A stretch of 64,000 nucleotides of DNA from Streptomonospora nanhaiensis (lineage in GTDB: Bacteria > Actinomycetota > Actinomycetes > Streptosporangiales > Streptosporangiaceae), in assembly GCF_013410565.1 (NCBI RefSeq), contig NZ_JACCFO010000001.1, positions 1,116,001 through 1,180,000 on the forward strand, written 5' to 3'. Positions 35,632-46,732 of the stretch are shown here, in pieces. Numbering within the stretch: the stretch's first letter is position 1; each line of letters starts with the position of its first letter. The notes under the pieces are model-generated. The model did no database searches. It was given only the letters and a program-made list of their open reading frames with translations, and was not told where the DNA came from. Both the position numbers and the translations under genes were made by a program.

Positions 35632-36029
35632 GTGGCTCCTTGGGTGTGGGCCGGTCCGGGTGCGGGCCGGCGCGTTCCTGGGCGCGCCGCCGCGGCCTCC
35701 GCGCGGGCGCGGCCCCGGATCGGATCGGCCGCGCGGCCGGCGGCTGAGCCCGCGGAGCGGGCGCGGCGGCGGGCGCGTCCTACCAGCGTAGAGCACACCG
35801 GCGGCCTCGGCCGCCGGTTCCGCCCAGGCCGCCCGCCGCCGGCGCCCGACCGGGTGTACCAGGTCAGCGGCGGTCCGGACGGTCCGCCGCCGGGCGTCGA
35901 CCCGTTGCCGCATCCGGTCTCGAACGACCCTCGAACCCCGCCGCCCACGATGGGGGCGGTCGCGGCGGCCGCCCCTGGGGCCGGGCGCCGCGGCACCACC
36001 TGTCATCGGGCTGCGAAGGAGACGCGGGC
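35632..36029. other. Intergenic region at the left edge of the polyketide island
   Basis: About 400 bases between the divergent tyrA and KS-alpha units, very GC-rich. It must hold both promoters, but no box pair stands out. A GAAGGAG ribosome site at 36015-36021 serves the short leader frame. No direct repeat or integrase remnant was recognised. Confidence 0.4.
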
Positions 36030-36071
36030 ATGCTGAGCCAGACGGGGCGCGCCGACGGGTCGGCGCCGTGA
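36030..36071 (+). CDS. 13-codon leader frame coupled to KS-alpha
   Basis: ATG at 36030 with a strong GAAGGAG site eight bases upstream, 13 codons (MLSQTGRADGSAP), and a TGA that overlaps the KS-alpha GTG (GTGA, 36068-36071). KS-alpha has no ribosome site of its own closer by, so ribosomes probably load here and re-initiate. It may be only a translation-loading device. Confidence 0.5.
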   Translation: MLSQTGRADGSAP

Positions 36072-37333
36072 ACCGCCGGGTGGTGATCACCGGGCTGGGC
36101 GCCGTTGCGCCCGGCGGTTCCGACGCGGACGCCTTCTGGCGGCTGCTGGTGGAGGGCCGCACGGCCACCCGCCCGATCACGCTGTTCGATCCCGCGGGGC
36201 TGCGCTGCCGCATCGCCGCGGAATGCGACTTCGACCCCGCGGCCCACGGGCTGACCCCGCTGGAGGTGCGGCGCATGGACCGCACCGCCCAGCTCGCCGT
36301 GGCCGCCGCAAAGGAGGCGCTGGCCGACAGCGGCCTGGCGGCCGCCCCGGCCGACCCCGACCGCACGGGGGTCTCCATCGGCAGCGCGGTCGGCAACACC
36401 ATCCGCATGGAGGAGGAGTACGCCGCCGTCAGCGACGGCGGGCGGGGCTGGCTGGTGGACTGGCGCTACGCGGTGCCCTACAGCTACTCCTACATCATCC
36501 CCAGTTCGATCGTCGCCGAGGTGGCGTGGCTGGCGGGTGCGGCCGGGCCGGCCGGGGTGGTGACCGCCGGCTGCACCTCGGGCCTGGACGCGGTGGGCCA
36601 CGCCGCCCAACTGGTGGAGGACGGCTCGGCCGACGTGATGATCACCGGCGCGGCCGACGCGCCGCTCTCGCCGATCACCCTGGCCTGCTTCGACGCCCTC
36701 AAGGCGACCACGCCGCGCAACGACGACCCGGCGTCGGCGTGCCGGCCCTTCGACCGCACCCGCAACGGGATCGTGCTGGGCGAGGGGGCGGCGGTGCTGG
36801 TGCTGGAGGAGCGCGAGCACGCGCTGGCGCGGGGCGCGGTGATCCACGGCGAGATCCTGGGCTACGGCAGCCGGGCCAACGCCTACCACATGACCGGCCT
36901 GCGCTCCGACGGCCGGGAGCTGGCCGAGGCGATCCGCGTGGCGCTGCACGAGGCCAAGACCGCGCCCGAGGACATCGACTACGTCAACGCCCACGGCTCG
37001 GGCACGGTGCAGAACGACATCCACGAGACCGCCGCGGTCAAGCGGACGCTGGGCCGGCGCGCCCGCGAGGTGCCGATGAGCTCGATCAAGTCGATGATCG
37101 GCCACTCGCTGGGCGCCATCGGAGCGCTGGAGATCGCCGCGTGCGTGCTTGCGCTGCGCCACCAGGCGGTGCCGCCGACGGCCAACCTGCACGAGCCCGA
37201 CCCCCGGTGCGACCTGGACTACGTGCCGCTGACCGCGCGGGAGGCGCGGCTGGACCGGGTGCTGAGCGTCGGCAGCGGCTTCGGCGGCTTCCAGAGCGCC
37301 ATCGTGGTCGCCCGCGAGGGGGTGCGGGCGTGA
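36068..37333 (+). CDS. Type II polyketide ketosynthase alpha (KS-alpha)
   Basis: Condensing subunit of an aromatic polyketide synthase, 421 residues. Catalytic Cys169 in VTAGCTSGLDAVGHAA, histidines in VNAHGSGT and IGHSLGA, and the sequence FDALKATTPRNDDPASACRPFD typical of aromatic rather than fatty-acid KS. It forms a heterodimer with the chain-length factor encoded next, the two genes overlapping by GTGA. GTG start. First main gene of the island; the expected partners CLF and ACP follow directly. Confidence 0.96.
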   Translation: MNRRVVITGLGAVAPGGSDADAFWRLLVEGRTATRPITLFDPAGLRCRIAAECDFDPAAHGLTPLEVRRMDRTAQLAVAAAKEALADSGLAAAPADPDRTGVSIGSAVGNTIRMEEEYAAVSDGGRGWLVDWRYAVPYSYSYIIPSSIVAEVAWLAGAAGPAGVVTAGCTSGLDAVGHAAQLVEDGSADVMITGAADAPLSPITLACFDALKATTPRNDDPASACRPFDRTRNGIVLGEGAAVLVLEEREHALARGAVIHGEILGYGSRANAYHMTGLRSDGRELAEAIRVALHEAKTAPEDIDYVNAHGSGTVQNDIHETAAVKRTLGRRAREVPMSSIKSMIGHSLGAIGALEIAACVLALRHQAVPPTANLHEPDPRCDLDYVPLTAREARLDRVLSVGSGFGGFQSAIVVAREGVRA

Positions 37334-38574
37334 GCGCGGTGTTCACCGGGATCGGGGTGGCCGCCCCCACGGGGATCGGCACCGAGGAGCACTGGGCGGC
37401 GACGCTGGCCGGGCGCTGCGCCATCGACCGCATCACCGCCTTCGACCCGGCCTCCTACCCGGTGCGCCTGGCCGGGGAGACCCGGGGGTTCGACCCCGCC
37501 GAGCACATGGGGCGCAAGCTGCGCAACCAGACCGACCACATGACCCACCTGGCCGTGGCCGGGGCGGGGATGGCCCTGGCCGACGCCGGAGTCGACCTGG
37601 AGTCGGTCGGGGAGTTCGAGCGCGGCGTGGTGGCCGCCAACTCCTCGGGCGGTGTGGCCTTCGGCCAGCGCGAGCTGCAGAAGCTGTGGTCCCACGGCCC
37701 CGCCCACGTCAGCGCCTACATGTCGGTGGCCTGGTTCTACGCGGCCACCGCGGGCCAGCTCTCCATCCGCCACGGGCTGCGCGGGCCGTGCATGGTGACC
37801 GCCTCGGAGCAGGCCGGCGGGCTGGACGCGGTGGGCCACGCGCGGCGGCAGGTCCGCCGGGGCACCCGGCTGGTGCTCACCGGGGGCACCGACGCCTCGG
37901 TGTCGCCGGTGGGGCTGAGCTTCGAGATCGCCACCGGCCTGCTGAGCACCGAGCCGGCGCCCGACCGGGCGTTCGTGCCGTTCGACGCGCGGGCCCGCGG
38001 CTACGTCCCCGGCGACGGCGGAGCGATCCTGGTCATGGAGGACGAGGCGGCGGCGCGCGAGCGCGGGGCACCCCGCATCTACGGCCGGCTGGCCGGATAC
38101 GCCGCCACCTTCGACCCGCCCGACCCGCGGGCGCCCGCGCGCCGCGCGCCGTTCGACCCGCCCTCGGCCCCGGCGGCGCCGCGCCTGCGGCGGGCCGCCG
38201 AGAAGGCGCTGGCCGACGCCGGACTGGCCCCCGACGACATCGGGGCGGTCTTCGCCGACGCCTACGGGGTGCCCGAACTGGACCTCGCGGAGTCGCGGGC
38301 CGTCGAGGCCGTGTTCGGCCCCGGCGGTGTGCCCGTCACCGCGCCCAAGACGCTGACCGGCCGGCTGTCGGCCGGCGGCAGCGCGCTGGACCTCGCCACG
38401 GCGCTGCTGGCGCTGCGCGACGGGGTCATACCGCCCACCGCCAACGTCGACCGGCTCGCGCCGGGGGTCACCGTCGACCTCGTGCGCGAGCCGCGCCCCG
38501 CCCCGCTGCGCGCCGTGCTGGTGCTGGCCCGGGGCTACGGCGGCTTCAACGCCGCCGCCGTGGTGACCCGCTGA
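37330..38574 (+). CDS. Type II polyketide chain-length factor (KS-beta)
   Basis: Partner of KS-alpha that sets chain length. It has the KS fold but Gln161 in place of the catalytic Cys (VTASEQAGGLDAVGHA), the hallmark of chain-length factors, which decarboxylate malonyl-ACP to prime the chain. Further typical stretches: RGTRLVLTGGTDASVSPVGL, GYVPGDGGAILVMEDE and PKTLTGRLSAGGSALD. 414 residues, GTG start overlapping the KS-alpha stop. A Pro/Ala/Arg-rich loop near residues 258-280 is somewhat longer than usual. Confidence 0.96.
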   Translation: MSAVFTGIGVAAPTGIGTEEHWAATLAGRCAIDRITAFDPASYPVRLAGETRGFDPAEHMGRKLRNQTDHMTHLAVAGAGMALADAGVDLESVGEFERGVVAANSSGGVAFGQRELQKLWSHGPAHVSAYMSVAWFYAATAGQLSIRHGLRGPCMVTASEQAGGLDAVGHARRQVRRGTRLVLTGGTDASVSPVGLSFEIATGLLSTEPAPDRAFVPFDARARGYVPGDGGAILVMEDEAAARERGAPRIYGRLAGYAATFDPPDPRAPARRAPFDPPSAPAAPRLRRAAEKALADAGLAPDDIGAVFADAYGVPELDLAESRAVEAVFGPGGVPVTAPKTLTGRLSAGGSALDLATALLALRDGVIPPTANVDRLAPGVTVDLVREPRPAPLRAVLVLARGYGGFNAAAVVTR

Positions 38575-38658
38575 CGCGCGCGGCACCACTTCGGCCGATC
38601 GGACAACGCCCGGCGGGCGCCCCCGCGCCCCCGCGCCCCCTGCGAGAGGAGACCCGAC

Positions 38659-38916
38659 ATGAGCACGCTCGACATGCCGCGCCTGAAGGAGATCATGCGC
38701 GCCACCGCCGACGAGGACACCGACGTCGACTGGGAGGGCGACCTGCTCGACCAGCCCTTCACCGACATGGGCTTCGACTCCCTGGCCGTGCTGGAGATCG
38801 CCACCAGCATCCAGCAGCGGTTCGGCCTGGTCATGCCCGACGAGGTCGTGGCCGAGCTGACGACCCCGCGCAGCGTCATCGACTACGTCAACGCGCACCG
38901 GCCCGCCACCGCCTGA
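38659..38916 (+). CDS. Polyketide acyl carrier protein
   Basis: An 85-residue carrier with the phosphopantetheine serine at position 41 (DMGFDSLAVLEI), acidic helix II and the tail TPRSVIDYVNAH. It carries the growing polyketide between KS-alpha/CLF and the ketoreductase. GAGAGGAG lies nine bases before the ATG. The KS-CLF-ACP order is the standard minimal PKS. Confidence 0.96.
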   Translation: MSTLDMPRLKEIMRATADEDTDVDWEGDLLDQPFTDMGFDSLAVLEIATSIQQRFGLVMPDEVVAELTTPRSVIDYVNAHRPATA

Positions 38917-38993
38917 CCCGCGCCGCGCGCCGGCGCGCGGCGCGGGTCCGCCCGCACGCGCGCCGGCGTCCCGAACAGAAAGGGCAGCAGCCG

Positions 38994-39992
38994 ATGCCGA
39001 CCTTCACCCCCGCACCGCCCCCGCCGCGCGGCGCGCGCATCAGCGGGCTGGGCGTGTACCGCCCCTCGCGGGTGGTGCCCAACGCCGAGATCGCCGAGCG
39101 CCTGGGGGTCTTTGAACGGCAGCTGGCCAGGCGCTCGGGCATCCGGCACCGCCGCTTCGCCGAGCCCCACGAGACGCTGACGGCCATGGCCGCCGCGACC
39201 GCGCTCAAGCGCGCCGGGGTGGACGCCGCCGACCTGGGCTGCGCCGTCGTGGCCACCACCACCCACCTGAGCCAGATGCCCTCGGCCGCCACGGCGGTGC
39301 TGCGCGAACTGGGCGGCAACGGCGTCGCGGGCTTCGACATCCTCGCCGCCTGCGCCGGGTTCCCCTACGCCGTGGGGCTGGCCCGCGACATGGTGGCCGC
39401 CGGAAGCGCCGAGCACGTCCTGGTGGTCGGCGCCGAGCGGATCTCCGACATCCTCGACCACGACGACCCCGCCACCGCGTTCCTGTTCGGCGACGGCGCC
39501 GGGGCGGTGGTGGTCAGCGCGGCCGACCGGGCGGCGATCGGCCCCGTGGTGTGGGGCAGCGACGTCGACCGGCCCGACGCGGTGGGCATGACCGGCCGCT
39601 GGGTGCCCGAACTGCGCGCGGACCCGGCGCTGCCCTGGCCGCGCCTGGGCATGGTCGGCTGGAAGGTCTACCGGTGGGCCACCACCGAACTGGCCCCGGC
39701 GGCGCGCCTGGCGGTGGCGCGCGCCGGGCTCACCCTCGACGACATCGACGCGTTCATCCCCCACCAGGCCAACATGCTCGTCACCGACGCACTGGTCCGC
39801 CAGCTGGGCCTGGGCGCGCACGTGGCGGTGGCCCGGGACATCGCCGAGTCGGGAAACACGTCCTCGGCGTCCATCCCCCTGGCCATGGAGGCGCTGAGCG
39901 CCTCGGGCGCCGTGCGTCCGGGCCAGCGCGCCCTGTGCATCGGGTTCGGCTCGGGGCTGGTCTACGCGGCCCAGGTCGTGGACATCCCCTGA
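38994..39992 (+). CDS. KAS III-type ketosynthase (starter-unit loading)
   Basis: FabH-like enzyme of 332 residues: Cys120 in DILAACAGFPYAVGLARDM, His in PHQANML, Asn in ESGNTSSASIPLA, and the closing GFGSGLVYAAQVV. In type II clusters a KAS III usually condenses a non-acetate starter acyl-CoA with malonyl-ACP, so a product primed by something other than acetate is likely. The ATG at 38994 follows AGAAAGGG. It could alternatively serve fatty-acid synthesis, but its position argues for the polyketide. Confidence 0.92.
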   Translation: MPTFTPAPPPPRGARISGLGVYRPSRVVPNAEIAERLGVFERQLARRSGIRHRRFAEPHETLTAMAAATALKRAGVDAADLGCAVVATTTHLSQMPSAATAVLRELGGNGVAGFDILAACAGFPYAVGLARDMVAAGSAEHVLVVGAERISDILDHDDPATAFLFGDGAGAVVVSAADRAAIGPVVWGSDVDRPDAVGMTGRWVPELRADPALPWPRLGMVGWKVYRWATTELAPAARLAVARAGLTLDDIDAFIPHQANMLVTDALVRQLGLGAHVAVARDIAESGNTSSASIPLAMEALSASGAVRPGQRALCIGFGSGLVYAAQVVDIP

Positions 39993-40056
39993 CACCGCAC
40001 CCTCGAGGGCTCTTGCCCCCTTCGCCGATCCCCCGCAGCACGAAGGAGACGAGTAC

Positions 40057-41319
40057 GTGAGCGAGAACCCACGGCCGCCGGTCCTGATCACCGGCGGCAC
40101 CAGCGGCATAGGACTGGCCTGCGCGCGGACGCTGGGCCGCGCCGGCCACCGGGTGTACGTGTGCGCCCGCACCACCGAGGACGTCGTCCGCACCGTCAAG
40201 CGGCTGCGCGAGGAGGGGATCTCTGCTGACGGGCGCGCCTGCGACGTCCGCGACTCCGCCTCGGTGGCCGATCTGGTCGCCGCGGCCACCGACCGCTTCG
40301 GCGCGGTGGGCGTCCTGGTCAACAGCGCCGGGCGCAACGGCGGCGGCGTCACCCGCGACGTGTCCGAGGAGCTGTGGCGCGACGTCGTGGAGACCAACCT
40401 CACCGGCGTCTTCCTGACCACCCGCCAGGTGCTGGCCGAGGGCGGGATGCTGGACCTGCCCAGCGGCCGGATCGTCAACATCGCCTCCACCGGGGGCAAG
40501 CAGGGCGTGGCCTTCGCCGCGCCGTACTCGGCCAGCAAGCACGGGGTGGTGGGGTTCAGCAAGGCCCTGGGCAAGGAGCTGGCCGCCACCGGCACCACGG
40601 TCAACGCGGTGTGCCCCGGCTACGTCGAGACGCCGATGGCCGAGCGGGTGCGCGCCGACTACGCGGCGGGCTGGTCGGTCAGCGAAGAGGAGGCGGCCAC
40701 CGTGGAGTTCCTGACGGGACCCGACGGCGCCCACTACTTCATGGAGGTCAACAGCCGCATCCAGGTCGAGCACCCGGTCACCGAGATGGCCTACGGCGTG
40801 GACCTGGTGCGCGAGCAGCTCCTGGCGGCGGCGGGCGAGCCGCTGTCGGCCGAACTGGCGGCGGCGCGGCCGCGCGGCGCGGTCATCGAGTGCCGGGTCA
40901 ACGCCGAGGACCCCGAGCGCGGCTTCGCGCCCGCGCCGGGCACGCTGGAGGAGTTCACCCCGCCGGGCGGGCCGTTCGTGCGCGTGGACACCCACGCCCG
41001 CGCCGGATGCGGATCCCCGCCGCCTACGACTCCCTGCTGGCCAAGGTCGTGGTGTGGGCGCCCGACCGCACGCAGGCGCTGGCGCGGGCGGTGCGGGCCC
41101 TGGAGGAGTTCCGGGTGGCGGGCGCGGGCGTGCGCACCACCATCCCGTTCCTGCTGCGGGTGCTGCGCGACCCCGACTTCCGCGCCGGGCGGCACGACAC
41201 CGGCCTGGTCGCCCGCCTGTAGCCCGCGCCGCCGCCCCGCCGTCGCGCCCGTGCCCCGCGCCCCCGCGCGGGGCACGGGCGTGTGCGCCCCCTCCCCGCG
41301 CGCGGAAACACAGGATTAA
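40057..41319 (+). CDS. Polyketide ketoreductase fused to a biotin-carboxylase remnant (chimeric frame)
   Basis: Residues 1-215 are an act-type C9 ketoreductase (SDR): nucleotide loop TGGTSGIGLACA, Ser in IVNIASTGG, YSASK with Tyr and Lys, and NAVCPGYVETPMAERVRADY. Just after WSVSEEEA the ketoreductase ends, about 45-50 residues short, and the frame continues as the C-terminal part of a biotin carboxylase (FMEVNSRIQVEHPVTEMAYG, AVIECRVNAEDPERGF). Near 41009 a one-base shift puts the rest out of frame. GAAGGAG before the GTG. Without the KR tail, which helps the tetramer form, activity is doubtful. Confidence 0.85.
   Translation: MSENPRPPVLITGGTSGIGLACARTLGRAGHRVYVCARTTEDVVRTVKRLREEGISADGRACDVRDSASVADLVAAATDRFGAVGVLVNSAGRNGGGVTRDVSEELWRDVVETNLTGVFLTTRQVLAEGGMLDLPSGRIVNIASTGGKQGVAFAAPYSASKHGVVGFSKALGKELAATGTTVNAVCPGYVETPMAERVRADYAAGWSVSEEEAATVEFLTGPDGAHYFMEVNSRIQVEHPVTEMAYGVDLVREQLLAAAGEPLSAELAAARPRGAVIECRVNAEDPERGFAPAPGTLEEFTPPGGPFVRVDTHARAGCGSPPPTTPCWPRSWCGRPTARRRWRGRCGPWRSSGWRARACAPPSRSCCGCCATPTSAPGGTTPAWSPACSPRRRPAVAPVPRAPARGTGVCAPSPRAETQD
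40699..41222 (+). pseudogene. 3' fragment of a biotin carboxylase (accC-like) gene, frameshifted
   Basis: About 175 codons match the C-terminal lobe of acetyl/propionyl-CoA carboxylase biotin carboxylase: TVEFLTGPDGAHYFMEVNSR, then VDLVREQLLAAAGEPL, and after the shift PAAYDSLLAKVVVWAPDR and TTIPFLLRVLRDPDFRAGRH, ending at the stop 41222. The N-terminal ~270 residues with the ATP-grasp core are absent. Around 41007-41010 one base appears missing (frames join at GCCGGATG). Carboxylase genes occur in some aromatic polyketide clusters (for example jadJ), supplying malonyl-CoA. This copy cannot be active. Confidence 0.82.
41246..41281 (+). terminator. Hairpin after the biotin-carboxylase fragment
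   Basis: A perfect 15-base-pair stem (41246-41260 with 41267-41281, arm cgcccgtgccccgcg) and six-base loop, 23 bases after the carboxylase stop at 41222. It shows that the carboxylase 3' end and its terminator are original neighbours. Confidence 0.7.
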
Positions 41320-41349
41320 CCGTCCGGATTCGGTCACGCGAATTACGCG

Positions 41350-41826
41350 GCTGGTGTGGGCGAAGTCGCCGAAGTGGACGTCGCTGCTGACCAGCACCAC
41401 CCGCGCCGGGGGGACCAGGGCGTCCCGCAGCAGCCGCACCAGCAGGTAGTGGCCCAGGACGTTGACACCGAAGGTGAGCTCGAAGCCGTCCTCGGTCGTC
41501 TGGTCGGCGGTGGTGGTCTGCAGGCCGGCGTTGCCGACCAGGGCCGCCAGCCGCGGCAGGGTCCCGGCGGTCAGCCGCTCGCCCAGCTCGGCCGCCGCGG
41601 AGCGGACGCTGTCGAGCGAGGCGAAGTCGCAGTGCAGCGGGTGGACGTTGGGGTTGCCGGACTCGTCGGCGAGCCGCCGGGCCACCGTGGCGGGGGCCTC
41701 GCACACCGCGACCACGACGTGGCGGTCGGGATCGGCGCGCAGCAGCTTTAGCGCGGTGTGGTAGCCCAGGCCGCGGCTCGCGCCCGTGACGACCGCGCTA
41801 TGGGCGCCGGTCTTCATCGCAGCCAT
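41350..41826 (-). pseudogene. Truncated short-chain dehydrogenase/reductase
   Basis: The first ~158 residues are a good SDR: VVTGASRGLGYHTALKLL, HCDFASLDSVRSAAAEL, LVGNAGLQTTTADQTTEDG and VVLVSSDVHFGDFAHT. The family usually has 280-320 residues, but here similarity stops right after FAHT near 41350, before the catalytic YxxxK, and the frame runs on through unrelated antisense sequence. The ATG has AGGGAGA seven bases upstream. It looks like a gene cut by the same event that joined the ketoreductase to the carboxylase fragment. Confidence 0.75.
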
Positions 41827-42026
41827 GCAGAGTCTCCCTCTAAAAATCGTGAAACCGAGCGGACCGAGCGTGGAACCGTACTCATTCTAGGGAGTCCGGG
41901 CGCCCGCGGAAGTGGAGCGGAAAAAGGAAACCAAGAATTGACCCGGTGCACTCGGACGGCCGTTTCCGCGATCTTGGGAAAAGGATCTTCGCTGGTTTTT
42001 CCGGTGCTTTCGGGGTACGGCGGGGC

Positions 42027-42057
42027 GGCCCGGCGGACCCGTCGGGGCCGCCGGGCC
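42027..42057 (-). terminator. Hairpin after the P450 / isomerase-like pair
   Basis: A perfect 10-base-pair stem (42027-42036 with 42048-42057) with an 11-base loop, 28 bases beyond the stop of the leftward isomerase-like gene. Confidence 0.5.
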
Positions 42058-42085
42058 CGGCCGGGCCGCATGGGCGGACGCGGCG

Positions 42086-42394
42086 TCAGGCCGCCTGGTC
42101 AGCGGGGGCGCCGGGCGGGAGACCGCCGAACCGGGTGCCGTCCACCACCGGTGTGACGGTGTACTCCACATAGGGGACCATCGGGCTCCCGTTGAGGTAG
42201 TCCAGGAGTTCGGCGTGGGAATCCACCTCGAAGATGTTGGTGGCGCCGAAACCGCCGACGCGCACCCAGGCGTGCACGATCACGCCTTTTTCGTGAAGGT
42301 CTTTCATGTACCGCAATGCGCGGCGGAAACGGTCCTCGAACTCCGCTCCGCTGATACCGGCCGGATTTCCTTTGGTGACGACCTCGAACAGCAT
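42086..42394 (-). CDS. Muconolactone-isomerase-like small protein
   Basis: A 102-residue ferredoxin-like-fold protein resembling muconolactone delta-isomerase: MLFEVVTKG at the start, HEKGVIVHAWVRVGGFGATN and EVDSHAELLDYLNGSPMVPY. In this setting it is more likely to act on a polyketide intermediate than on muconolactone. The ATG at 42394 follows GGGAAGGAAAG; a second ATG at 42418 overlaps the P450 stop (ATGA) and would add eight residues. Either way it is co-expressed with the P450. Function is inferred only from fold and context. Confidence 0.75.
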   Translation of the reverse strand: MLFEVVTKGNPAGISGAEFEDRFRRALRYMKDLHEKGVIVHAWVRVGGFGATNIFEVDSHAELLDYLNGSPMVPYVEYTVTPVVDGTRFGGLPPGAPADQAA

Positions 42395-42414
42395 GCCGCT
42401 TTCCTTCCCTTGGC

Positions 42415-43683
42415 TCATCGGTTGTCGGCGGTGACGATGAAGGAGCTGAACTCGCGCAGCGGGATGGAGCGGCGGCGCACCGGTTCGGCCGCCGCGCGCA
42501 GCCCCGGGAAGCGCCGGCGCAGCTCCCGCAGCAGCACCGTGATCTCCAGCCGGGCCAGCCCTGCGCCCAGGCAGTAGTGGATGCCCGCGCCGAACATCAG
42601 CGGGTTGGCGGCGGCGCGGGCGGGGTCGAATCGGTCGGAGTCGGGGAACCGGCGGGGGTCGCGGTTGGCCGAGCCGATCAGCAGCCGCACCTCGCGCCCG
42701 GCGGGCACCGCGACGCCGCCGATGCGGGTGTCCACGGCGGTGTAGCGGCGCGCGGCGGCCACCGGTCCCGGCGTCTCCCACCGCAGCAGCTCGTCCACGA
42801 ACGCCCCGGCGGTCTCCTCGGCGTCCAGCCAGTGCGCGTGCTCGGGGTGGGCCAGCAGGGTCGCCACGCCGTTGTCGGCGGCGATGGCCGGGGTCTCGAA
42901 CCCGGCCGCCCACAGGGTGAACACCATGGTGCGCAGCTCGTCCCCGCTGAGCCGGTCGCCGTCCTCGTCGTGCACCGACACCAGCCCCGACAGCAGGTCG
43001 GAGCGGGGCTCGCGGCGCCGCTGGGCCACCAGGACGTCGAGGTAGTCCCCGAACTCCGCGAAGGCGGCGTCGGCGTCGGTGAACTGCTCCTCGCCCGCCG
43101 CCGGGTCGACCACGTGCAGCATGCGGGGCACCAGGGCCGACACGTGCGGCAGGTCGGCCTCGGGGATCCCCAGCAGCCGGGCGAGCACGTGCATGGGCAG
43201 CGGCACCGACACCTCGCGGTGCAGGTCGACGCTGCCCTCGGCGCGCATCCGCTCCTGGGCGCGGTCCAGCAGCCGGGCGCACACGCGTTCGATCTCGGGC
43301 CGCATGCCGTTGATCCGGCGCGGGGTGAACTCGCGGGAGACCAGGCGGCGCAGCCGGGTGTGGCCGGGCGGGTTGTGCCCCACCAGCGAGGTTTGGAAGA
43401 TGCGGTAGGCCTCGTGCTGGGCGGCCTGCGGGAACAGCGCGGCCAGCATCTCCTCGTCGATCGCGCGGAAGACCTCGTGGTCGCGCAGCACCTGGTCGCA
43501 GTCGGCGTAGCCGGAGACGACGTAGGCGTTGAAGCCCCCGCTCCAGGCGACGGGCGCGTTCTCCCGCAGCCACGCGTAGACGGGGTAGGGGTCGATGTCC
43601 CCGCGCATCATCAGTCCGAACAGCATCTCGTCGACCGAGGCTCCCGCGGGCTGCCGGGGCTGCTCGGTCCGCTCAGCGGTCAT
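42415..43683 (-). CDS. Cytochrome P450
   Basis: A 422-residue bacterial P450 that would oxidise the polyketide or another small molecule. Heme-ligand loop FGAGIHYCLGAGLAR with Cys371, I-helix LWAAGFETPAIAADNG, the ExxR of K-helix in DELLRWETP, and C-helix region HNPPGHTRLRRLVSREFTP. Soluble, no membrane anchor, so it relies on separate ferredoxin and reductase, not seen here. Its stop overlaps a possible start of the isomerase-like gene. Confidence 0.95.
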   Translation of the reverse strand: MTAERTEQPRQPAGASVDEMLFGLMMRGDIDPYPVYAWLRENAPVAWSGGFNAYVVSGYADCDQVLRDHEVFRAIDEEMLAALFPQAAQHEAYRIFQTSLVGHNPPGHTRLRRLVSREFTPRRINGMRPEIERVCARLLDRAQERMRAEGSVDLHREVSVPLPMHVLARLLGIPEADLPHVSALVPRMLHVVDPAAGEEQFTDADAAFAEFGDYLDVLVAQRRREPRSDLLSGLVSVHDEDGDRLSGDELRTMVFTLWAAGFETPAIAADNGVATLLAHPEHAHWLDAEETAGAFVDELLRWETPGPVAAARRYTAVDTRIGGVAVPAGREVRLLIGSANRDPRRFPDSDRFDPARAAANPLMFGAGIHYCLGAGLARLEITVLLRELRRRFPGLRAAAEPVRRRSIPLREFSSFIVTADNR

Positions 43684-43965
43684 GGCACGTGCTCCCTGCC
43701 GGGTTCCGGCGGCGCCGGGCCGCTCGGGGGTGGATGGACGGGCCGGGGACCCAGGGCGGGCCCCGCGGGCGGACAGCGGCGGTGCGGAGCCGCCCGGCCG
43801 CTGCGGCCGCCCGGCCAGGCTGCCCCGCGGCGCTCGACGTCGCCTGGAGATCGGGTCGCGGCCGCCGGCGCCCCCGCGGCGCCTCCAGCCGCCGTCGACC
43901 CGACGACGACCGGCGGGCGCCAGGCTGGCCCCGGCAAGCCGCCCACACGCCAGCCAGGAGGTGCC

Positions 43966-44400
43966 ATGCCGACCACGTCCCAGCAGGTCGCGCCCGAGAC
44001 CGTCAGCCGGGTGCGGCAGTTCTACGCCGAGCAGATGCAGCTCATCGACGACGGCGACGTCGCGGGGTGGGCGGCGACGTTCACCGAGGACGCCGTCTTC
44101 TCCTCCAACGGGCTGCCCGCGCCCGGGCACGGGCGCGCCGCCATCGAGGCCGGCGCCCTGCGGGCCGCCGCCGAGCGGCGGGCGCGCGGTGCCCGCCACC
44201 GGCACGTGCAGTCGGCGCTGGCCGTGCGCGATGCGGGCGCCGGCACCCTGCGCTGCCGCTCCTATGTGACCGTGGTGGAGACGCTGCCCGGCGCCCCGCC
44301 GGTGCCGGTCGCCCAGACCGTACTGGAGGACGAACTGGTCCTCCACGGCGGCGAGCCGCGGGTCCGCGCGCGCACCGTCGTGCGCGACGACCTGCGCTGA
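43966..44400 (+). CDS. SnoaL-like / NTF2-fold protein
   Basis: A 144-residue protein with the SnoaL/NTF2 cone: VRQFYAEQMQLIDDGDVAGW, AATFTEDAVFSSNG and RAAIEAGALRAAAE, ending in a beta-rich half. Relatives in aromatic polyketide pathways act as cyclases or hydroxylases, others are plain hydratases or isomerases. CAGGAGG lies before the ATG. It diverges from the P450 across 282 bases and converges on the luciferase-like gene. Whether it supplies the missing ring closure is open. Confidence 0.8.
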   Translation: MPTTSQQVAPETVSRVRQFYAEQMQLIDDGDVAGWAATFTEDAVFSSNGLPAPGHGRAAIEAGALRAAAERRARGARHRHVQSALAVRDAGAGTLRCRSYVTVVETLPGAPPVPVAQTVLEDELVLHGGEPRVRARTVVRDDLR

Positions 44401-44403
44401 GCG

Positions 44404-44458
44404 CCCGGGGAGGCGGGCCGCGCCGCACCCCTGCCCCGGGCGCGCCCGCCTCCCCGGG
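44404..44458. terminator. Hairpin between SnoaL-like and luciferase-like genes
   Basis: A perfect 15-base-pair stem (44404-44418 with 44444-44458; arm cccggggaggcgggc) with a 25-base loop, starting three bases after the SnoaL-like stop and in front of the converging gene end at 44505. Confidence 0.65.
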
Positions 44459-44504
44459 TCCGCCGCCGGGCCGCCGCGCGGCCGGGCGGCGGCCCGGCCG
44501 CGCC

Positions 44505-45596
44505 TCAGCGCGCGGCGGCCGGGCTCTGCTCGCGCGGGCGGGTGAACTCCGGCAGCACCCGGTCGGCGAGCACCCGCAGCGTGCGCTCGGCCCGCTCCAC
44601 CGTCGTGGTGCCGGAGTTGACGTGCAGGCTGACGGTGACCTCGCCGAAGTGCTCCCGGATCCGCCGCAGCCGCTCGGCGATCTCCTCGGGCGTGCCCACC
44701 AGCAGCTTGTCCTCGCGCAGCGAGGCGTCGTAGTCGATCCGCTTGACGCCCTCCACCAGCCGCTCGTAGCCCTGGTACTGGTCGCTGCGGGTCCGGCCCC
44801 AGGCGGTCACGGCCTCGGCCAGCTTGGCGCGGTAGTTGTCGGCGTAGGCGCGCCCGGCCGCGTAGGCGGCGGAGCTGTCGTGCTCGTCCAGGTAGCACTC
44901 GTAGCTGACGTGGACGTGCTCGGCGCCGGGTGCCCCGCCCGAGGCCGCCCAGCCCTCCCGGTAGACCGCCAGCAGCCCCTGGAGGCGTTCGCGGTCCAGG
45001 ATCGAGGGCACCACCATCAGCCCGTGGCCGGCCCGCCCGGCCGCCGCGCACGACTCGGGGCTGAAGGCCGCGGCCACCAGGATCGCCGGGTGCGGCCGCT
45101 GGTAGGGGCGCGGCAGCAGCGTGAGCGGACCGAAGGCGTAGTGGCGGCCCTCGAAGCGCACGTCCTCCTCGGTCCACAGCCGGCGGCACGCCTCCACGCC
45201 CTCCTGGAACCGCTCGCGGCTCTCGTCCATGGGGACCCCGAACGCGTCGAACTCGTCCGGCAGGAACGCCCGGCCGAACCCGGCCTGCAGGCGGCCCCGC
45301 GAGATGTTGTCCAGCATCGCGAGCTTGCCCGCGAGCTTGAGGGGGTGGGTGAACGCGGGGATGGCCGCGCCGGTGACCAGGCGGACGGACGCGGTGCGCG
45401 CCGCGGCGGCGGCCAGGAACGTCACCGGGTCGGGGCTGTAGCCGCCGTAGGGGTGGAAGTAGTGCTCGACGGTCTTGACGTGGTCCAGGCCGAGTTCGTC
45501 GGCGACCTCGGCCAGCCGCAGGCACTCGGCGAAGTAGCGGTCGGCCGGCTTCTCGGCGGGGCCGACGGTGGGGAAGAAGTTGATCCCGAATCGCAT
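44505..45596 (-). CDS. Luciferase-like monooxygenase of the polyketide island
   Basis: A 363-residue TIM-barrel flavin monooxygenase: MRFGINFFPTVGPAEKPADR at the start, LGLDHVKTVEHYFHPYGGYS and NISRGRLQAGFGRAFLPDEF. Such enzymes use reduced FMN delivered by a partner reductase; the flavin-reductase gene lies just upstream, 17 bases away, so the two probably form a two-component oxygenase for a hydroxylation or Baeyer-Villiger step. The C-terminal VSLHVNSGTTT is typical of the bacterial luciferase branch. Confidence 0.88.
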   Translation of the reverse strand: MRFGINFFPTVGPAEKPADRYFAECLRLAEVADELGLDHVKTVEHYFHPYGGYSPDPVTFLAAAAARTASVRLVTGAAIPAFTHPLKLAGKLAMLDNISRGRLQAGFGRAFLPDEFDAFGVPMDESRERFQEGVEACRRLWTEEDVRFEGRHYAFGPLTLLPRPYQRPHPAILVAAAFSPESCAAAGRAGHGLMVVPSILDRERLQGLLAVYREGWAASGGAPGAEHVHVSYECYLDEHDSSAAYAAGRAYADNYRAKLAEAVTAWGRTRSDQYQGYERLVEGVKRIDYDASLREDKLLVGTPEEIAERLRRIREHFGEVTVSLHVNSGTTTVERAERTLRVLADRVLPEFTRPREQSPAAAR

Positions 45597-45613
45597 GGCA
45601 TCTCCCGGTTCGT

Positions 45614-46132
45614 TCACGGACGCGGTGCGCGCGGAGGGCCGGGCCGCCAGCTCCCGTACTCGCGCTGGAGGTAGACGAGCGCGGGCCGGTCGTAGACCGC
45701 GCCCGCCTGGGGCGCGCCGATGACCAGGACGTGGTCGGCGACGTCGAGGAAGTCCACGGCGACGCACTCCACGGTGGCCACGCTGTCGGCGTAGAGCACC
45801 GGCGCTCCCGAGGCGCGGTCGGAGGGGCGGTGCCGCACGCCCCGGAACTTGTCCTCGCCGGTTCCCGCGAAGCGGCGGGACAGCTCCTCGCCGCCGGCCG
45901 CCAGCAGGTTCACGGCGAACGCCTTGCTGGCGGTGATCGCCCCCAGGGTGCGGGCCTGCCGGCCGACGCACACCAGCAGCAGCGGGGGCTCCACCGACAC
46001 CGAGGCGATCGCGTTGCTGGTGAACCCCTGCGGCCGGCCGGAGCGGTCGACCGAGGTCACCACGGCCACACCGTTGGCGAACCTCCCCATGATCAGCCGC
46101 ATCCGAACGGAGTCGACCACCTCGGCGGGCAT
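45614..46132 (-). CDS. Flavin reductase (FMN-binding split barrel)
   Basis: A 172-residue FMN-binding reductase: MGRFANGVAVVTSVDRSGRP, FTSNAIASVSVEPPLLLVCV and NLLAAGGEELSRRFAG mark the flavin-reductase/HpaC family that supplies reduced flavin to two-component monooxygenases. GGGGAGG stands five bases before the ATG at 46132; a longer frame to 46213 has shadow composition. Operon with the luciferase-like gene. Confidence 0.92.
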   Translation of the reverse strand: MPAEVVDSVRMRLIMGRFANGVAVVTSVDRSGRPQGFTSNAIASVSVEPPLLLVCVGRQARTLGAITASKAFAVNLLAAGGEELSRRFAGTGEDKFRGVRHRPSDRASGAPVLYADSVATVECVAVDFLDVADHVLVIGAPQAGAVYDRPALVYLQREYGSWRPGPPRAPRP

Positions 46133-46280
46133 CAGGACCTCCCCTGCCGCCCCGCCGGCCGCCGGGGCTCGGCGGCCGGGGGCGCGCTGTCGCACAGCAC
46201 GATCGCCGACCATGTTCGAGACGGCGTCGAGCCCCGGTTGAGGGCGCGGGAGGCGGCGGGAGCGGCGGGGCGCAACGGCG

Positions 46281-46324
46281 CGGGGCCCGCCGCGCGGCCC
46301 TGTGCGGGCGTGCGGCGGGCCCCG
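46281..46324 (-). terminator. Hairpin after aroH
   Basis: A perfect 13-base-pair stem (46281-46293 with 46312-46324; arm cggggcccgccgc) with an 18-base loop, 46 bases past the aroH stop. It isolates aroH from the polyketide island. Confidence 0.6.
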
Positions 46325-46369
46325 GTGGCGGGCCCGGTCCGGTCCGGGCCGGGCGTTGGGCTGTGCGGC

Positions 46370-46732
46370 CTACTGGGCGATGTCCAGGCGCAGGGCCTGG
46401 GCACCGCGCAGGTAGACGTGCTGCAGCTCGGCGCGCGGCCGGTCGGTCTCGACATGGGCCATCAGCCGCACCACGCGCGGCAGGGCGTGCGGCACCGCGA
46501 TCTCGGTGGCACACATCAGCGGGACGTCGGTGAATCCGATCTTGCGCGCCGCCAGGGCGGGGAACTCCGAGCTGAGGTCGGGCGTGGCCGTGAACAGCAC
46601 GCTGATCACGTCGTCGGTGGTGAGGTCGTTGCGGCGCATGACCTCGGCCACCAGCTCGGCGGTGGCCTCCAGCACGAGGTCGCGCTCGTCGCCCTCGACC
46701 TGGACCGCACCCCGGATCGCTCGTACTGCCAC
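46370..46732 (-). CDS. aroH: Chorismate mutase, AroH class
   Basis: Converts chorismate to prephenate. A 120-residue AroH-type trimer subunit: VRAIRGAVQVEGDERDLVLE at the N-terminus, with the active-site arginine and glutamate equivalents in this strand and in LVAEVMRRNDL, then SVLFTATPDLSSEFPALAAR and MCATEIAVPHALPRVVRLM. Start is GTG. In relatives it directly follows tyrA; here the polyketide island separates them. Confidence 0.95.
   Translation of the reverse strand: MAVRAIRGAVQVEGDERDLVLEATAELVAEVMRRNDLTTDDVISVLFTATPDLSSEFPALAARKIGFTDVPLMCATEIAVPHALPRVVRLMAHVETDRPRAELQHVYLRGAQALRLDIAQ

Follow-up and report, generated by a model that had tools for sequence, protein, structure and literature searches.

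A probable recent deletion joins and breaks a ketoreductase gene and a biotin carboxylase gene in a type II polyketide synthase cluster of Streptomonospora nanhaiensis

How did a polyketide ketoreductase (KR) come to share a reading frame with part of a biotin carboxylase (AccC), and what does the join mean for the product of the cluster in which it lies? The open reading frame in question occupies positions 40057-41319 (+) of a stretch of 64,000 nucleotides, hereafter the window, and encodes 420 amino acids, with a TAA stop codon at 41317-41319. We consider it quite likely that a real and recent deletion inside a type II polyketide synthase (PKS) cluster has both fused and broken the KR and AccC genes. 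The genes to the 5' side of the hybrid, and the island that contains them, are as follows.

35643-46366, no strand assigned: island that lies between tyrA and aroH and holds the type II PKS cluster, delimited by homology breaks against four same-genus loci
36068-37333, + strand: KS-alpha (KSα), unbroken, with Cys169, His309 and His346
37330-38574, + strand: KS-beta (KSβ) or chain length factor, unbroken, with Gln161 at the position of the KSα cysteine
38659-38916, + strand: acyl carrier protein (ACP), unbroken, with a PP-binding domain
39006-39992, + strand: KAS III-like synthase, unbroken

A minimal type II PKS system is present, consisting of a KSα with its active-site Cys169, a KSβ with Gln161 and an ACP; Pfam assigned ketoacyl-synt domains to KSα and KSβ and PP-binding to the ACP. 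The right arm of the island carries genes for a P450, a SnoaL-like protein, a luciferase-like monooxygenase and a flavin reductase. The flanking genes were named tyrA and aroH from the Pfam domains PDH and CM_1; a search of the 5 other same-genus genomes found aroH in 4, G003 being the exception, and the gap between tyrA and aroH is about 200-520 bp in all 4 same-genus stretches that we compared. DNA homology of these stretches to the window breaks off at 35640-35643 and returns at 46366-46370. Among the same-genus genomes compared, the PKS cluster is thus 10.7 kb of extra DNA in this species. A search for repeats at the island edges gave nothing convincing, just an 11-nt GC palindrome.

The hybrid frame and the gene that converges on it divide into the following segments.

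40057-40692, + strand: the N-terminal 212 of about 261 residues of a type II PKS ketoreductase; Ser-Tyr-Lys retained, 49 C-terminal residues gone
about 40690-40702, + strand: first junction, KR to AccC in frame, located by comparison with loci L018, L118, L119 and L015
40696-41004, + strand: biotin carboxylase (AccC) remnant in the KR frame, from Pfam and TIGR00514
about 41005-41012, + strand: second lesion, a frameshift in the AccC remnant, after which homology goes on in another frame
41007-41222, + strand: C-terminal part of the AccC remnant in that other frame, with its own TAG stop at 41220-41222
41005-41319, + strand: out-of-frame tail of the hybrid frame, about 100 residues
41341-41826, - strand: third lesion, a convergent SDR oxidoreductase gene truncated so as to lack its C-terminal half

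As the original prediction had held, KR and the C-terminal part of a biotin carboxylase are fused in one frame. Pfam placed adh_short at residues 9-202 (E 2.2e-59), CPSase_L_D2 at residues 211-264 (E 1.6e-13; profile positions 155-209 of 211) and Biotin_carb_C at residues 278-319 (E 3.5e-11; profile positions 1-42 of 108), and the TIGR00514 accC model matched residues 205-322 with profile positions 263-380 of 449. Both halves are far above chance. The KR half has the SDR domain with the Asn-Ser-Tyr-Lys set of a type II PKS KR: Asn114, Ser144, Tyr157 and Lys161, which we take to be the SDR catalytic residues, are all present, and retention of the last three had been correctly foreseen. KR homology stops after the motif SVSEEE (residue 212, nucleotide 40692) and AccC homology begins at 40693-40702; the frame switch, predicted at 40695-40705, was thus measured at 40692-40702, within a few bases. 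The C-terminal KR region to about residue 261 is absent from the window KR, and with the 261-residue KR of L018 as yardstick the missing tail comes to 49 residues, where 45-50 had been estimated. A complete one-frame AccC was likewise not found: there is no Biotin_carb_N domain, the ATP-grasp profile is matched only from position 155 of 211, and a frameshift follows. By Pfam, the intact AccC proteins of L015 and L119 carry N-terminal, ATP-grasp and C-terminal domains. A single-sequence AlphaFold model of the hybrid frame had a mean pLDDT of 35.5, which speaks neither for nor against a working protein.

The hybrid frame ends at 41319 and not at 41222, the end first given for this feature, because the frame changes at about 41005-41010; position 41222 is the end of AccC in the other frame. 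The segment that ends there matched Biotin_carb_C (E 2.6e-19) and was 62% identical to the AccC of L153. The frameshift site lies outside any long homopolymer, the nearest run being a CCCC a few bases further on. A GC-frame scan, aimed at the base rate of frameshifts, marks many gene borders as well. In the SDR gene (start 41826, - strand), homology to relatives is lost at residues 158-162, or about 41341-41354 of the window. A search of the 341 family genomes gave, the window aside, two relatives at E 1e-35 or better, of 317 and 331 amino acids; none of the other searched cluster proteins lay alongside them in their loci (L156, 9.2 kb; L157, 17 kb). The three lesions fall inside about 0.7 kb. 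The fusion itself stood, and the picture of a clean chimera of two lobes did not, since the AccC frameshift and the truncated convergent SDR gene had been missed. Between the two convergent remnants, at 41246-41281, we also observed a perfect 16-nt GC-rich inverted repeat with a 4-nt loop, which lacks a T run and received no call in the terminator scan. Further to the right, GC content dips to 0.64-0.71 over 41750-42500, around a muconolactone isomerase-like gene (42086-42397) with a GC3 of 0.82.

Which genes normally lie between the two joined ends? Locus L119 (genome G261, same family) has on one strand the order KSα-KSβ-ACP-KAS III-KR-ARO/CYC-ER-like SDR-AccD/A-AccB-AccC, where ARO/CYC denotes an aromatase/cyclase, and Pfam domains support these assignments (polyketide cyclase, enoyl-reductase-type SDR, ACCA/carboxyl transferase, biotinyl and biotin carboxylase). 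The first five genes share order and strand with the window, and AccC lies downstream in both. In contrast to L119, the window is without ARO/CYC, the ER-like SDR, AccD/A and AccB, and what remains of its truncated KR and AccC is fused. The points in L119 that match the join are separated by 4936 bp, which hold the KR tail, ARO/CYC, the ER-like SDR, AccD/A, AccB and the N-terminal part of AccC. This content is close to the earlier guess that an aromatase/cyclase and carboxylase subunits had possibly been lost. The Nocardia transvalensis NBRC 15921 locus (L018) also has the KSα-KSβ-ACP-KAS III-KR order of the window, with protein identities of 70, 64, 44, 65 and 64%, respectively; unlike the window, its KR is complete, with ARO/CYC and an ER-like SDR after it. 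L118 (G270) likewise matches the window from KSα to KR and continues with ARO/CYC. No AccC occurs in the DNA compared from L018 (20.6 kb) or L118 (13.7 kb, to a contig end), so that L119 is the only one of these three loci to show AccC. The first 212 residues of the window KR are 60-65% identical to the KRs of these three loci. A Nocardia brasiliquinone cluster is mentioned in PMC10750837, and PMC12842786 deals with a larger, different genome; neither account bears on the KR-AccC join.

A wider comparison gave the same impression of a KR that has lost its end. At least 90 loci encode a KR of more than 55% identity; 6 of these represent the window itself or its copies, and the other 84 represent 82 distinct places (L099 and L118 coincide, as do L100 and L119), 80 of the 84 being the best matches listed and thus a non-random sample. 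Among the matches listed, KR reaches residue 256 or beyond in 84/84 other loci, and ARO/CYC lies no more than 1 kb downstream of KR on the same strand in 72/84 loci (70/82 places). Up to residue 212 the window KR keeps 81 of 85 near-invariant positions; the 4 that it misses compare with a maximum of 5 missed among the 84 others. Of the KR columns conserved across 95% or more of the 84 sequences, 28 lie beyond residue 212, and just 2 of these 28 are matched in the hybrid, by AccC residues in the alignment.

The position of the carboxylase genes varies among loci. In L015, AccB-AccC lie upstream of KR; in L153 (G092:C1:4456500-4476000), AccD/A-AccC precede KR and AccB follows it, with no KS match within 19.5 kb; and in L155 the carboxylase genes are divergent from KSα. 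Because this order varies, the set of lost genes, taken from L119 alone, is uncertain. With that qualification, we infer an ancestor with the L119 gene order and a deletion that is present in the organism. The deletion would have started in the KR gene and ended in accC, removing the KR tail, probably the aromatase/cyclase, the ER-like SDR, accD/A and accB, and the first ~270-290 codons of accC as well. It would have kept the frame by accident (1 in 3 by chance), and a frameshift would then have interrupted the accC remnant of the hybrid frame.

Deletion and assembly collapse had at first been put on a level. The L119 comparison speaks for deletion; an assembly or consensus error, in which the missing genes were skipped in assembly and a base error was introduced into AccC, we regard as unlikely. 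The genome (G000) is a 6.28-Mb assembly in 2 contigs with a completeness of 100, and those of the missing genes that were searched for were not found elsewhere in it. ARO/CYC gave no match in G000, whereas the control genomes G261 and G270 were both matched; AccB of the L119 type gave no match in G000 or G270 and was found in G261, and the G270 KR locus is likewise without carboxylase genes. A full AccC query recovered in G000 the remnant, three other biotin carboxylase sites (43-51% identity) and a weak match (28%), with no N-terminal AccC part of the cluster type elsewhere in the assembly. This missing-gene search took in ARO/CYC, AccB and AccC and left out the ER-like SDR and AccD/A. Two further observations speak against collapse on a repeat at the join. 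The segment 40400-41000 has no second full copy, its 12 other matches being partial (best 72%, over the AccC part; 40 of 692 first-look candidates scored), and just one 12-mer from 40671-40720, and no 13-mer, recurs in the window. The clustering of three lesions, with the convergent SDR gene truncated too, and the position of the frameshift outside a long homopolymer also argue against an error.

What an error would explain is the good condition of the remnants. GC3 is 0.967 in the KR part, 0.981 and 1.0 in the two AccC parts and 0.963 in the SDR gene, and is alike in the unbroken neighbours. The AccC remnant is 63-65% identical to the proteins of L119 and L015, which are themselves 63% identical over the same part. 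The window KSα, KSβ, KAS III and KR are all farther from their L018, L118 and L119 counterparts than those are from one another, and the divergence of KR is not clearly worse than that of the other three. We found no excess divergence by which the remnants could be called old. Since there is neither GC3 decay nor extra divergence, the lesions are either artefacts or of recent date when set against the divergence of the genes.

A second alternative, somewhat less probable still, is that the island combines pieces of two clusters, which would make the join a recombination point and not a deletion inside a single operon. The closest AccC to the remnant is that of the L147/L155 cluster, which has another gene order (identities: L147 72%, L153 70%, L015 68%, L119 67%), and the right arm of the island also ends in a truncated gene. 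Yet one deletion is enough, because L119 carries KR and then AccC on one strand. This alternative overlaps in part with the deletion explanation, as the join is real in both, and the likelihoods that we give here are not mutually exclusive.

Homologues with the same fusion, which had been named as a safeguard against artefact, did not turn up. A search of 341 family genomes with the hybrid, cut off at 41004, as the query (at most 6 candidates scored per genome) gave matches at E 1e-45 or better in 69 of them; the KR-AccC join was spanned by the match of G000 alone, so that a conserved KR-AccC fusion family is not supported. Two matches that extended past the KR half, one in G092 as far as query residue 245 and one in G325 as far as 275 with two stops, proved to be ordinary full-length KRs. 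Outside that check lay the rows of G164, G253 and G310, which run to 224, and a few that run to 218-219; G270, also among the rows past the KR half, corresponds to L118. The 5 other same-genus genomes gave no match at 1e-40. KAS III was tried as a marker of the cluster and set aside, as 106 of 341 family genomes match it at 1e-70, mostly at about 45-50% identity. At 60% identity or above, only G270, G261 and G216 of the family genomes remain beside our own, and at 1e-100, 4 of 345 genomes match, our own included; G216 (L120) has another gene order and no close KR. That selection joined KR and a biotin carboxylase lobe into a working two-domain protein has almost no likelihood: the in-frame join, the retained Ser-Tyr-Lys and the 81/85 near-invariant positions kept to residue 212 would suit it, but the 2/28 score past that residue, the loss of most of the ATP-grasp domain, the passage of AccC out of frame past about 41005 and the lack of the fusion in the other genomes of the 341-genome search all oppose it.

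Returning to the deletion explanation, what would the lesions mean for function? Most likely, to judge from the domains that are missing, KR and carboxylase activities would both be lost, because the KR is without its conserved tail and the carboxylase has neither its N-terminal domain nor the greater part of its ATP-grasp domain. As a gene the hybrid is of an ordinary kind of decay and not new in kind. Chimeric pseudogenes born of deletions are a general kind in bacterial genomes, two truncated genes being joined by loss of what lay between them. The window hybrid is like these, with a frameshift in addition, and differs in that its join happens to preserve the frame.

Taken at face value, this cluster would be credited with a KR, and perhaps with a carboxylase, and its predicted product would be a reduced aromatic polyketide. 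With KSα, KSβ, ACP and KAS III unbroken, the cluster could give at most an unreduced, non-aromatised chain, and its pathway is most likely either dead or yielding unreduced products. It seems improbable that the cluster is still in use as a rerouted pathway, made up of these four genes and the right-arm genes for the P450, the SnoaL-like protein, the luciferase-like monooxygenase and the flavin reductase; if it were, the product would be an unreduced polyketide unlike those of related clusters. Since neither enzyme is complete, and a search of the genome revealed no such aromatase/cyclase, any prediction of the product should start from a pathway that is broken or rerouted; L119 provides the intact reference cluster.
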